NCBI GenBank assembly: GCA_013391385.1 | Contig: JACBFI010000012.1 | Coordinates: 1 to 64,000 of the forward strand | DNA length: 64,000 bases | Reading direction: 5' to 3' | DNA from: Sediminibacterium sp. Gen4 | GTDB lineage: Bacteria; Bacteroidota; Bacteroidia; Chitinophagales; Chitinophagaceae | Shown here: positions 36,997 through 40,704 of the stretch, one piece after another | Layout: every line of letters begins with the position of its first letter | How positions within the stretch are numbered: position 1 is the first letter of the stretch | Position numbers and translations under genes: made by a program | The notes under the pieces: model-generated | Database searches by the model: none | Told to the model about the DNA's origin: nothing | Seen by the model: the letters and a program-made list of their open reading frames with translations, nothing else

Positions 36997-37067
36997 GATA
37001 AAAGTAACCCAAAATAAACCTAAAATATTTTTTGAAAAAAACGAGTTACCCAGGGTTACCTTTTATC
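36997..37067. promoter_or_regulatory. inverted repeat between the sigma factor and the lipoprotein gene
   Basis: GATAAAAGTAACCC (36997-37010) and GGGTTACCTTTTATC (37053-37067) are reverse complements apart from one inserted base. A further GGGTAACTCG-like half (minus strand, about 37042-37052) adjoins the right copy. The AAC-containing halves resemble the -35 elements of ECF promoters and face both genes, so this may be where the sigma factor acts on itself and on the lipoprotein gene. Confidence 0.45.
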
Positions 37068-37110
37068 ATAACCGGGTATTAACCTTAAAATCACTCAAAA
37101 AAAACACACA

Positions 37111-37299: not shown

Positions 37300-37428
37300 T
37301 TTGAACGCAGAACCCGTGATGAAGATCATGAAGCGCCCGCTTGCCGGCCGATAGGGTTCTCTAAAGAGTTTTTCATATGGCAAGCAATCGTTAGAGGCCG
37401 CTCCGTTTCCACGGAGGGGCTTTTTTTT
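37300..37428 (+). ncRNA. possible structured RNA or 3' UTR with interleaved stems
   Basis: The stretch is richer in G and C than its neighbours and ends in a strong terminator. AGAACCC (37309-37315) can pair with GGGTTCT (37354-37360), and GCTTGCC (37339-37345) with GGCAAGC (37379-37385). These stems interleave, as in a pseudoknot. It follows the lipoprotein stop directly, so it may simply be a structured 3' UTR. No known RNA family was recognised. Confidence 0.3.
37396..37428 (+). terminator. rho-independent terminator after the small lipoprotein gene
   Basis: GCC plus CTCCGT (37401-37406) pairs with ACGGAG (37411-37416) plus GGC across the tetraloop TTCC. Eight T residues follow at 37421-37428. 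Confidence 0.9.
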
Positions 37429-37663: not shown

Positions 37664-37671
37664 TATATTTG
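37664..37671 (+). promoter_or_regulatory. -7 box for the aromatic leader transcript
   Basis: TATATTTG is an exact TAnnTTTG, ending five bases before the leader-peptide ATG at 37677. If used, the message would start at about that ATG. In-frame ATGs at 37641 and 37650 lie upstream of it and would need another promoter. Confidence 0.5.
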
Positions 37672-37676
37672 ATTCA

Positions 37677-37766
37677 ATGAACACAACAACAAACAATACC
37701 TGGTTTTATTTTTTCTTTTACTACTTCTTTAATCAAAGGAGCCGGGTAGTATTTGTTAAAGCTTAA
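37677..37766 (+). CDS. aromatic amino acid attenuator leader peptide (29 aa)
   Basis: A 29-codon ORF reading MNTTTNNT, then WFYFFFYYFF, then NQRSRVVFVKA and TAA. Ten consecutive codons are aromatic (one Trp, six Phe, three Tyr). It lies directly upstream of a terminator and of pheA, the first gene of an aromatic amino acid unit. The design matches leader peptides such as PheL and TrpL of enterobacteria, although the sequence is unrelated. Ribosome stalling at any scarce aromatic tRNA would be sensed. The frame is open upstream, with ATG also at 37650 and 37641; I chose 37677 because of the -7 box. Confidence 0.82.
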   Translation: MNTTTNNTWFYFFFYYFFNQRSRVVFVKA

Positions 37767-37819
37767 GCGAACAACAACAATCAACATACAGTCCCGGCCA
37801 ATTGGTCGGGATTTTTTTT
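37724..37819 (+). promoter_or_regulatory. transcription attenuator of the pheA unit
   Basis: Three competing stems can be drawn. Stem 1:2 pairs CTTCTTT (37724-37730, the last aromatic codons) with AAAGGAG (37735-37741). Stem 2:3 pairs GCCGGG (37741-37746) with CCCGGC (37793-37798), with further pairing of 37749-37757 to 37783-37789. Stem 3:4 is the terminator at 37792-37811. If the ribosome stalls on the aromatic codons, region 1 is covered, 2:3 forms and transcription continues. If it does not stall, 1:2 and 3:4 form and transcription stops. Confidence 0.75.
37792..37819 (+). terminator. attenuator terminator before pheA
   Basis: A 20-base self-complementary stretch at 37792-37811 (outer arms TCCCG and CGGGA, centre CCAATTGG, two G-U pairs) is followed by eight T residues. 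It ends 14 bases before the pheA ATG, with no gene other than the leader ORF upstream of it on this transcript. Confidence 0.88.
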
Positions 37820-37833
37820 GACGTATAACGAAG

Positions 37834-38700
37834 ATGACAAAACAGGGAAACATAACAACAAACACAAATAACGGTATTGCCATACAAGGCTATGAGGGTA
37901 GCTTTCACCAGGTAGCCGCTCGTTCTTTTTTTGGTAAAACTGTTACCGTCATTCCCTGTGCCAGTTTTCGTGAACTGATACAGATCGCAGGAGATGCAAA
38001 ACAATCAGCAGGGGCTGTAATGGCCATTGAAAACTCAATCGCAGGAAGTATTCTGCCGAATTATAATCTCTTACAAAAAAGTAAACTCAAAGTAGTAGGA
38101 GAAATTTACCTCTCCATCAGTCAAAATTTATTGGTGAATCCGGGTGTTCGATTGGAAGAGATCAAGGAAGTACATAGTCATCCAATGGCCATTCTTCAAT
38201 GTTTGGATTATCTGGAACAATATCCATGGAAATTGGTAGAAACAGAAGATACCGCTTTGAGTGCAAAATTGTTGCATCAACATAGAAGTAAACATACGGC
38301 TGCGATTGCCAGTAAATTGGCTGCAGAGTTGTTTCAATTGGAAATAATTGGTCCTGATATCCATACCATGAAAAACAATATCACCCGTTTTCTGGTATTG
38401 AAAAGAGCCGGCACTTTTGAAGCAGATATCAATGCGAATAAAGCTTCAGTCTATTTTCAAACCAGCCATGATAAAGGCGCATTGTCCAAAGTACTCACCA
38501 AAATTGCAGCAGGCGGAATCAATCTCAGTAAACTACAAAGTATGCCCATACCCGGTAGTCATTTCAAATATGGTTTTTATGCTGATATGGAATTTGATCA
38601 TCAAAAACAATTCAATCAAGTACTCATGTCTATTGAGTCTTTAACCAATAATGTCAAAATATTCGGTGTCTATACAAAAGGAAAACTTATCAAAGGATAA
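37834..38700 (+). CDS. pheA: prephenate dehydratase with ACT domain
   Basis: A 288-residue enzyme converting prephenate to phenylpyruvate, the committed step to phenylalanine. The substrate-binding dehydratase domain has QGYEGSFHQVAA and the catalytic NNITRFLVL (Thr184-Arg185-Phe186). The C-terminal ACT domain (about 205-283) has GALSKVL and LSKLQSMPIPG, the position where ESRP contributes to Phe feedback inhibition in other enzymes. It lacks a chorismate mutase domain; that activity is fused to the DAHP synthase at 42618. It is the first structural gene after the attenuator and overlaps the next start by one base. Confidence 0.95.
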   Translation: MTKQGNITTNTNNGIAIQGYEGSFHQVAARSFFGKTVTVIPCASFRELIQIAGDAKQSAGAVMAIENSIAGSILPNYNLLQKSKLKVVGEIYLSISQNLLVNPGVRLEEIKEVHSHPMAILQCLDYLEQYPWKLVETEDTALSAKLLHQHRSKHTAAIASKLAAELFQLEIIGPDIHTMKNNITRFLVLKRAGTFEADINANKASVYFQTSHDKGALSKVLTKIAAGGINLSKLQSMPIPGSHFKYGFYADMEFDHQKQFNQVLMSIESLTNNVKIFGVYTKGKLIKG

Positions 38701-39863
38701 TGATGGAAATAAAAACAGCCAGTAGATTAGAAGGGATCGGTGAATATTATTTCTCACAAAAATTGAGAGAAATTGAATCACTGAACAAGGAAGGTAAAGA
38801 TATCCTGAACCTGGGCATTGGCAGTCCGGATTTGCCGCCGCATCCGGAAGTCATTCGCATGTTGCAAGACACTGCCGCAAAAGATCATGTACATGCGTAC
38901 CAGAGTTATAAGGGTTCGCCCATACTGCGCAATGCCATCAGTCAATGGTATCAAACATGGTATGGAGTAGCACTGAATCCAGATACAGAAGTATTACCAT
39001 TGATCGGTAGCAAAGAAGGGATCATGCATATTTGTATGACCTATTTGGATAAAGGTGATGAAGCGCTGATACCGGATCCGGGATATCCCACATACAGCAG
39101 TGCAGTGAAACTGGCAGGAGGTACGCCTGTTACCTATCAGTTATCAGAAGCACATCAATGGCAGCCTGATCTGGAAGCACTTTCCCAAAGGGATCTTTCT
39201 AAGGTTAAATTAATGTGGGTGAATTATCCGCATATGCCTACGGGACAACTACCATCTGCTGATTTTTATGCGTCGTTGATTGCATTTGCCAAACAGCATG
39301 AAATATTGATTTGCCATGATAACCCTTATAGTTTTATTCTGAATGATCATCCATCCAGTTTATTAAGTGCTCCGGGAGCCAAAGAAGTGGTGTTGGAACT
39401 CAACTCACTTAGTAAAAGTGCGAATATGGCTGGATGGAGAGTGGGGATGTTATGTGCTGCTAAAGAAAGAATTGATGAAGTGTTACGTTTTAAAAGTAAT
39501 ATGGATAGTGGCATGTTCCTGCCTGTTCAATTGGCGGCGGCAAAAGCATTGGAGTTGGGAAAAGATTGGTATGATGAGGTCAATACAATATATGCAGCCA
39601 GGCGTGAAAAAGTATTTGAGTTGCTGACACAATTGAACTGTCGTTTTTCAAAAGATCAAGTAGGCATGTTTGTATGGGCTGCTGTTCCTGATTCGTTGAA
39701 AGATGGTTATGAAATGAGCGACCGCGTATTATACGGCGCTGCTGTCTTCATTACCCCCGGTGGTATTTTTGGGGAAGCAGGAAAAAAATATATCCGTGTC
39801 AGCCTTTGCGGAAGCATCGAGAAATTCGAAGAAGCCATTCACAGAATTCAAACCCGATTATAA
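38700..39863 (+). CDS. class I/II aminotransferase (aromatic/aspartate type)
   Basis: A 387-residue fold-type I PLP enzyme. The PLP Lys lies in NSLSKSANMAGWR, the cofactor-binding motif is LIPDPGYPTY, and the C-terminal Arg that binds the substrate carboxylate is in YIRVSLCGS. Given its place between pheA and tyrA, it most likely transaminates phenylpyruvate and 4-hydroxyphenylpyruvate (or prephenate) to the amino acids. LL-diaminopimelate or aspartate aminotransferase relatives look similar. ATG 38700 overlaps the pheA stop; ATG 38703 is equally possible. Confidence 0.87.
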   Translation: MMEIKTASRLEGIGEYYFSQKLREIESLNKEGKDILNLGIGSPDLPPHPEVIRMLQDTAAKDHVHAYQSYKGSPILRNAISQWYQTWYGVALNPDTEVLPLIGSKEGIMHICMTYLDKGDEALIPDPGYPTYSSAVKLAGGTPVTYQLSEAHQWQPDLEALSQRDLSKVKLMWVNYPHMPTGQLPSADFYASLIAFAKQHEILICHDNPYSFILNDHPSSLLSAPGAKEVVLELNSLSKSANMAGWRVGMLCAAKERIDEVLRFKSNMDSGMFLPVQLAAAKALELGKDWYDEVNTIYAARREKVFELLTQLNCRFSKDQVGMFVWAAVPDSLKDGYEMSDRVLYGAAVFITPGGIFGEAGKKYIRVSLCGSIEKFEEAIHRIQTRL

Positions 39864-39864
39864 G

Positions 39865-40704
39865 ATGAAAATAACGATCATAGGAACCGGATTAATTGGC
39901 GGATCACTGTCATTGACATTGCGAGAGAAAGAATGGGTTACACATGTAATAGGCGTGGACAATAACCCTATTCATGCGGCACGTGCATTGGAGTTGCAAC
40001 TGGTGGATGAAATCGCAGATCTGACAACAGCCATCGCAAAATCAGATCTGATCATCTTATCAACACCCATCAATGCCGCAGAAGATATGTTGCCACAGAT
40101 ATTAGATCAGATCACCCATCAGGTGGTGATGGATGTAGGTTCCACCAAAAAAATAATCTGTGAATCTGTGGCTGATCATCCAAAGCGTGGTCGATTTGTA
40201 GCCACACACCCCATGTGGGGAACAGAATACAGTGGTCCGGATGCTGCCGTAAGGGCTGCATTTGCCAATAAAGCCACAGTGATCTGTTCTAAAGAAGAGA
40301 GCGATGAAGATGCAGTACAAAAAGTGGAAGAGCTATATAAGACACTGGGTATGCATATTCTGTATATGAAAGCAGATGATCATGATGTACATGTGGCATA
40401 TGTGAGTCATATTTCACATATCACTTCATTTGCGCTGGCCAATACCGTATTGGAGAAGGAAAGAGAAGAAGATGCCATTTTTGAGCTGGCCAGCGGTGGT
40501 TTTGAGAGCACCGTACGATTGGCCAAGAGTAATCCCGCCATGTGGGTGCCCATTTTCATGCAAAACCGTGATAATGTGTTAGATGTACTGAATGAACATA
40601 TTGCCCAGCTCAGGAAATTCAAAGCTTGTTTGGAAAAAGAGAATTATGACTATTTACAGGAGTTGATTGAGAATGCGAATGGGATTAAGCGGATTCTTCG
40701 CTAG
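39865..40704 (+). CDS. tyrA: prephenate dehydrogenase
   Basis: A 279-residue NAD(P)-dependent enzyme converting prephenate to 4-hydroxyphenylpyruvate. The Rossmann motif is IIGTGLIGGS (residues 4-13), with ATHPMWGTEYSGP and YVSHISH supplying catalytic histidines. No ACT domain is seen. It starts one base after the preceding stop (TAA-G-ATG), so it is co-transcribed. The frame continues upstream into the aminotransferase gene, which I reject as the start. A large hairpin of intergenic repeat follows. Confidence 0.93.
   Translation: MKITIIGTGLIGGSLSLTLREKEWVTHVIGVDNNPIHAARALELQLVDEIADLTTAIAKSDLIILSTPINAAEDMLPQILDQITHQVVMDVGSTKKIICESVADHPKRGRFVATHPMWGTEYSGPDAAVRAAFANKATVICSKEESDEDAVQKVEELYKTLGMHILYMKADDHDVHVAYVSHISHITSFALANTVLEKEREEDAIFELASGGFESTVRLAKSNPAMWVPIFMQNRDNVLDVLNEHIAQLRKFKACLEKENYDYLQELIENANGIKRILR

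Follow-up and report, generated by a model that had tools for sequence, protein, structure and literature searches.

The window analysed here, a 64,000-nucleotide stretch of contig JACBFI010000012.1 in the 3.5 Mb genome of Sediminibacterium sp. Gen4, holds a pheA-aminotransferase-tyrA operon behind an aromatic leader, with all features below on the forward (+) strand unless stated otherwise. The prephenate dehydratase gene pheA (37834..38700; PF00800, E 4.6e-54) is followed by a class I/II aminotransferase gene (38700..39863; PF00155) that overlaps it by 1 nt, and then by the prephenate dehydrogenase gene tyrA (39853..40704; NF006307 above cut-off, PF02153/PF20463) that overlaps the aminotransferase gene, neighbours in this trio thus sharing a few bases. 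The Pfam matches PF00800, PF00155 and PF02153/PF20463 bear out the identities that a first-pass annotation of the sequence had given to these three genes. Past tyrA the gene order is a DEAD-box helicase, a DAHP synthase/chorismate mutase-like gene scoring under the NCBIfam cut-offs, and aroB, which scores over its own cut-off. Comparison of PheA placed the closest named relatives in the Chitinophagaceae, with Sediminibacterium goheungense among them at 83%, and the genus and class labels used for the compared loci follow from this placement.

A leader ORF of 29 codons (37677..37766), encoding the peptide MNTTTNNTWFYFFFYYFFNQRSRVVFVKA, runs from an ATG at 37677 to a TAA stop codon at 37764-37766. 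Direct reading confirmed the ten aromatic codons in succession (WFYFFFYYFF) reported for it by the first-pass annotation; the regulatory codons, a W and then FYFFFYYFF, occupy 37701..37730, and the ORF is in this way enriched in codons for the products of the operon behind it. In-frame starts farther upstream (TTG 37638, ATG 37641 and ATG 37650) were rejected because they precede the −7 box described below. To gauge chance occurrence, a detector calling an aromatic leader (at least 7 aromatic residues in 12) plus a terminator was applied, and it fired on 81/81 genus-like pheA upstream regions, some genomes being present twice from two collections, compared with 1/81 reverse complements, 0/243 shuffles and 0/~200 random pieces of the window. 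The earlier statement that such an aromatic density is very unlikely by chance is thus borne out by controls near zero.

Between the leader and pheA lies an intrinsic terminator, formed by pairing of segment 3 (37786..37799; AUAC at 37786-37789 plus GUCCCGGCC at 37791-37799) with segment 4 (37804..37819; GGTCGGGAT plus a T8 tract). Its 9-bp stem (37791-37799/37804-37812; −15.6 kcal/mol) is accompanied by eight T residues at 37812-37819, and the pheA ATG at 37834 is 14 nt past the last of them, as the first-pass annotation had it. Segment 3 can alternatively pair with segment 2 (37741..37757; GCCGGG..GUAUUUGUU), the 5' part of the antiterminator according to pairing comparisons, in a 2:3 stem that joins GCCGGG at 37741-37746 to CCCGGC at 37793-37798 and is extended by GUAU/AUAC. 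Segment 2 in turn faces two upstream partners. Segment 1b (37724..37730; CTTCTTT) pairs with AAAGGAG at 37735-37741 in the predicted fold and in genus comparison. Segment 1a (37688..37703), the putative protector, pairs at 37688-37693/37752-37757 and 37697-37703/37742-37748 in the minimum-free-energy fold and is addressed by the 1:2 comparison outside the genus. All three competing stems originally proposed therefore exist, but the 1:2 stem given as CTTCTTT/AAAGGAG was incomplete, since 37688-37703 also pairs with segment 2.

The leader region folds with a z-score of −3.41, and 0/200 shuffles folded equally well. Fold prediction, which had been suggested as a check on the alternative stems, was run and returned both of them. 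Without a ribosome the minimum-free-energy structure is the 1:2 stem plus the terminator, and with a ribosome placed on the run and segment 4 absent the 2:3 stem is predicted to form (−15.6 kcal/mol). When segment 4 is present along with the stalled ribosome, the equilibrium fold still favours 3:4 over 2:3, so the antiterminator has to prevail kinetically, by being made before the terminator. In the window the start of the antiterminator follows the last aromatic codon by 10 nt. If the ribosome front reaches approximately 12 nt ahead of the start of its A-site codon, stalling at any codon of the run would keep segment 2 free. A T-box or other riboswitch was rejected, as no Rfam family of that kind matched the 64 kb window at gathering score.

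We consider it very likely that the pheA-aminotransferase-tyrA operon is under a ribosome-mediated transcription attenuator sensing charged tRNA-Phe and tRNA-Tyr. The data on which this reading rests are the sequence, its conservation and its alternative pairings, and from them we infer a start site, stalling, termination, kinetic competition and an effect on expression as follows. RNA polymerase would start approximately 1 nt before the leader ATG, causing the ribosome to load on a leaderless RNA. Under a shortage of Phe or Tyr, the ribosome would stall in the run with its A-site at 37704-37728 and its front edge just short of segment 2 (37741), disturbing segment 1, and segment 2 would then pair with segment 3 before segment 4 exists, allowing the polymerase to continue into pheA. 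When both amino acids are plentiful, the ribosome would reach the stop codon at 37764 and cover part of segment 2, resulting in the 3:4 terminator. If the leader were untranslated, the 1:2 stem would form and termination would be the default. Stalling near the end of the run would expose segment 1a behind the ribosome, a situation beyond this simple model.

Comparison with related Chitinophagaceae, likewise suggested by the first-pass annotation, was carried out on 72 same-genus (Sediminibacterium-like) pheA loci, of which 4 are cut by contig ends less than 190 nt from pheA. An aromatic leader and a terminator were found in 68/68 of the remainder, representing 65 distinct leader sequences, while of five places added later one is cut by the contig end and the other four (G070, G002, G023 and G053; outside the W, alignment and pairing counts) all carry leader, terminator and −7 box, bringing the total with the aromatic run and terminator kept to 72/72 readable loci. 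Loci dropped because of contig ends were L015, L032, L035, L065 and L225; G062 and gene-internal fragments of G015 and G023 are likewise outside the counts. No pheA match was obtained in 15 genus genomes. Among all loci collected, L139 repeats the own genome and L140 the position of L077, and L087 gave no tblastn match. The leader of the culturable Sediminibacterium goheungense DSM 28323 is near-identical to that of the window. Within this set segment 2 hardly varies (GCCGGG in 64/67) and all seven pairs of segment 1b are intact in 51/67 distinct leaders. One locus (L064) shows a triple compensatory change, with GCCAGG/CCTGG/CCAGG replacing GCCGGG/CCCGG/CCGGG. Where the run ends, the choice of F or Y codon tracks its RNA partner, CTTCTTT occurring with AAAGGAG or AAAGAAG and CTACTTT mostly with AAAGTAG, and the F/Y switch column is paired in 62/67 leaders; this covariation comes down to approximately 5 changes on the tree, too few for significance when they are treated as independent pairs. 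Among seven genus clusters, a cluster's own pairing exceeded the mean swap in 7 (1:2), 5 (2:3) and 5 (3:4), a weak test because there is too little divergence within the genus. In three loci (L070, L071 and L008) the leader stop codon has shifted into segment 2 or immediately ahead of it while segment 2 and the terminator are retained, as if masking of segment 2 alone matters.

A further 59 pheA upstream regions from outside the genus combine an order sample and a class sample and are no census. The class sample yielded a prephenate dehydratase match (E 1e-15) in 44/158 genomes, pointing to many auxotrophs or to a limit of the search; one locus (L110) belongs to another phylum. With a threshold of at least 5 aromatic residues in 12, leader plus terminator was found in 38/59 regions (for example MNTITQNTCFCFFFYFYGKWE and MKSFTYAYYFFFYFYFYHKVEREFVCIK), compared with 0/59 reverse complements and 5/177 shuffles, and at 7/12 in 31/59, 0/59 and 0/177, respectively; the other 21/59 regions lack the leader or the terminator at the lower threshold. 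The leaders' own 2:3 pairing averages −15.9 kcal/mol versus −7.8 for shuffled (p 1e-11) and −9.7 for partners swapped between species (p 3e-10), with a shuffle p<0.05 in 32/38. Their own 1:2 pairing averages −16.5 kcal/mol versus −11.6 and −11.7 for the shuffled and swapped controls, with a shuffle p<0.05 in 18/37, the doubtful locus L077, where the script had picked a wrong terminator, being excluded from the 1:2 and geometry tests. In 37 outside leaders the antiterminator starts 4-16 nt past the last aromatic codon, close to the front edge expected for a stalled ribosome if the footprint given above applies. Mutually exclusive antiterminator, terminator and 1:2 stems have thus been kept through divergence outside the genus, the evidence within the genus being weak. 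Taken together, the genus and class comparisons support the classical attenuation reading well.

That a W heads the run in the window raises the possibility of joint Phe, Tyr and Trp sensing by one leader, which the first-pass annotation had supposed. This variant of the same mechanism could draw on the presence of W at the head of the run in 49/68 genus leaders and on the DAHP synthase-like and aroB genes, which start approximately 2 kb beyond tyrA. However, W is missing from 19/68 genus leaders and 26/37 outside leaders, the residue counts being 461 F, 203 Y and 49 W in the former and 162 F, 125 Y and 11 W in the latter. The W codon may instead have been kept because TGG at 37701-37703 pairs with segment 2 in the modelled fold. 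Moreover, trpE has a leader of its own. In the genome of the window a WWW leader (MIRTLNIQWWWHTNSNRGM) and a terminator precede trpE (L156:1294-1353, C16), and a His leader (MKQFAHIHHHHYLPIG, HIHHHH) and a terminator precede hisG (L155 reverse strand, approximately 1224-1340, C24). The genus trpE loci examined showed the WWW leader in 28/28 and a terminator at least 25 nt past the stop codon in 28/28, and the hisG loci showed the His leader in 30/30 and such a terminator in 29/30 (L191 fails). This distance was used as the criterion, another hairpin lying 9-14 nt past the stop codon in nine his and two trp loci. The DNA ahead of two trp loci (L167 and L169) was too short, no trp locus was found in G037 and no his locus in G029, and a weak second TrpE match (L157) has no Trp leader; ilvD sits inside an operon and so offers no leader to judge. 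Because W is often absent and trpE has its separate WWW leader, a Phe/Tyr sensor fits the sequences better than an all-aromatic sensor, and we regard joint sensing of the three residues as unsupported and rather unlikely.

Control of the terminator could also be exerted by nascent-chain arrest on the aromatic peptide, as for TnaC and antibiotic leaders, rather than by codon starvation. Good conservation of the peptide in the genus, its C-terminal half included, would agree with arrest, but that half overlaps RNA segment 2. In addition, F and Y interchange, the run varies widely across the class, and the trp and his leaders follow this plan with runs of W and H, which together make arrest a very improbable explanation. 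The reading that the ORF is incidental, with a real promoter and a fixed terminator merely lowering pheA expression, agrees with an equilibrium fold that favours 3:4 whenever segment 4 is present, yet it is hardly credible given detector controls near zero, antiterminator pairing kept outside the genus and a leader conserved in 72/72 readable genus loci.

Translation of the Phe/Tyr leader also appears to begin at the 5' end of its message. A predicted −7 box (TATATTTG, TAnnTTTG) lies at 37664..37671 by direct reading and genus comparison, and such a box is placed at −12 to −5 relative to the transcription start in the available text on Flavobacterium psychrophilum (PMC9723704). The predicted start is thereby 37676, with a 5'UTR of approximately 1 nt. 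Across the genus the distance from a TAnnTT[TC]G box to the leader start is 4-8 nt in 64/68 loci and 6-7 nt in 4/4 of the added loci, giving 68/70 readable loci when two of the four box-less ones, cut at contig ends, are set aside; this spacing implies a 5'UTR of 0-4 nt. The strict box at 4-9 nt was seen at 4/47 large ORFs of the window (5/47 when any of the first 8 starts is allowed) and at 9/2856 ATGs, the comparison being tilted toward a leaderless reading by the script's preference, among several possible starts, for the one beside a −7 box. A second promoter between the terminator and pheA was rejected, since 37791-37833 contains no TAnnTTTG. We consider a leaderless start of the leader probable on this pattern. 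Attenuation requires close coupling between ribosome and polymerase. If the leaderless start is true, this coupling would operate from the first nucleotides with no Shine-Dalgarno step, and a leaderless leader without Shine-Dalgarno initiation would make it directly testable in the culturable S. goheungense (L095).

The his leaders have a box 4-9 nt away in 29/30 genus loci, and the trp leaders have the strict box at this distance in 11/28, or in 22/28 allowing CAnnTT[TC]G and 3-10 nt. Outside the genus the box lies at 7-8 nt in 4/38 leaders and at 15-35 nt in 17 (L077 included), with no box within 45 nt in 17/38. We lean toward a genus rule of attenuation on leaderless messages, in which the predicted transcription start coincides with the beginning of the Phe/Tyr, the His and most of the Trp leaders, whereas many other class members seem to use a 5'UTR of approximately 11-29 nt for the pheA leader. 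If true, the leaderless form would be a solution recurring throughout the lineage, within a phylum where Shine-Dalgarno sites are hardly used. Leaderless mRNAs are put at 5.5% of those examined in F. psychrophilum in the available text of PMC9723704.

The Rfam Phe_leader model (RF01859) aligns over positions 1-125 of 125 with 27.4 bits against a gathering score of 55 (E 0.033), short of membership in that family. The enterobacterial pheA leader (pheL) consists of a Phe-rich ORF, competing stems and a terminator just before the prephenate dehydratase gene. The leader described here shares this plan, but differs in its mixed Phe/Tyr codons, in the presence of tyrA in the operon, in its predicted leaderless start and in a PheA without a chorismate mutase domain. 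Closer at hand, strong hints that leader peptides attenuate amino acid operons were noted in F. psychrophilum in 2021, along with 5' elements before pheA and hisG that are present in other Flavobacteriaceae and have no Rfam match (PMC9723704). That pheA element resembles ours in being structured, preceding pheA and belonging to the same phylum, and so the feature is not unprecedented there; the accessible text, confined to Flavobacteriaceae, gives neither a peptide nor a stem model nor a leaderless start for it. Within the text available for each, leader-peptide-like ORFs are mentioned in general for Bacteroides thetaiotaomicron (PMC7366714), and leader genes in Bacteroidetes are treated for reinitiation only (PMC4833913). 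Leaderless attenuators are described in the accessible parts of two other reports. In the Corynebacterium glutamicum ilvBNC attenuator the transcription start and the start codon of the leader are one nucleotide apart (PMC11857589), a likeness of description and not of sequence to the start predicted here, whereas that system concerns branched-chain amino acids in another phylum. In Sinorhizobium meliloti trpL the 5' end of the RNA (rnTrpL) is the leader ATG (PMC7298713), again as predicted here, but it responds to Trp, and its released RNA and peptide act in trans. Among the papers listed, judged by titles and abstract openings and with subscription journals mostly uncovered, none described a leaderless attenuator in Bacteroidota or a Phe/Tyr attenuator spread across the class. 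On that literature the attenuator is ordinary in principle, and its class-wide spread was found to be only partly reported before. The phylum literature retrieved in this way documents leader-peptide attenuation only briefly and Rfam has no model reaching threshold. The comparative evidence presented here indicates that aromatic amino acid synthesis is commonly controlled by leader-peptide attenuation in the class.

Two further stretches near the locus are recorded as side observations. On the minus strand, 37032-37107 gives a sub-threshold match (25.3 versus 56 bits) to the Rfam family BTncRNA_FopS of Bacteroidetes paralogous small RNAs. Window positions 37369-37428, approximately 60 nt ending in a terminator-like hairpin and without an Rfam match at gathering score, are 85-100% identical (often above 95%) across many loci of the genus at which PheA is merely about 70-78% identical. 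In addition to the window copy, two diverged copies (86% and 77%) occur in the same genome, and five are found in G251; judged by sequence, the stretch may represent a family of paralogous small RNAs.
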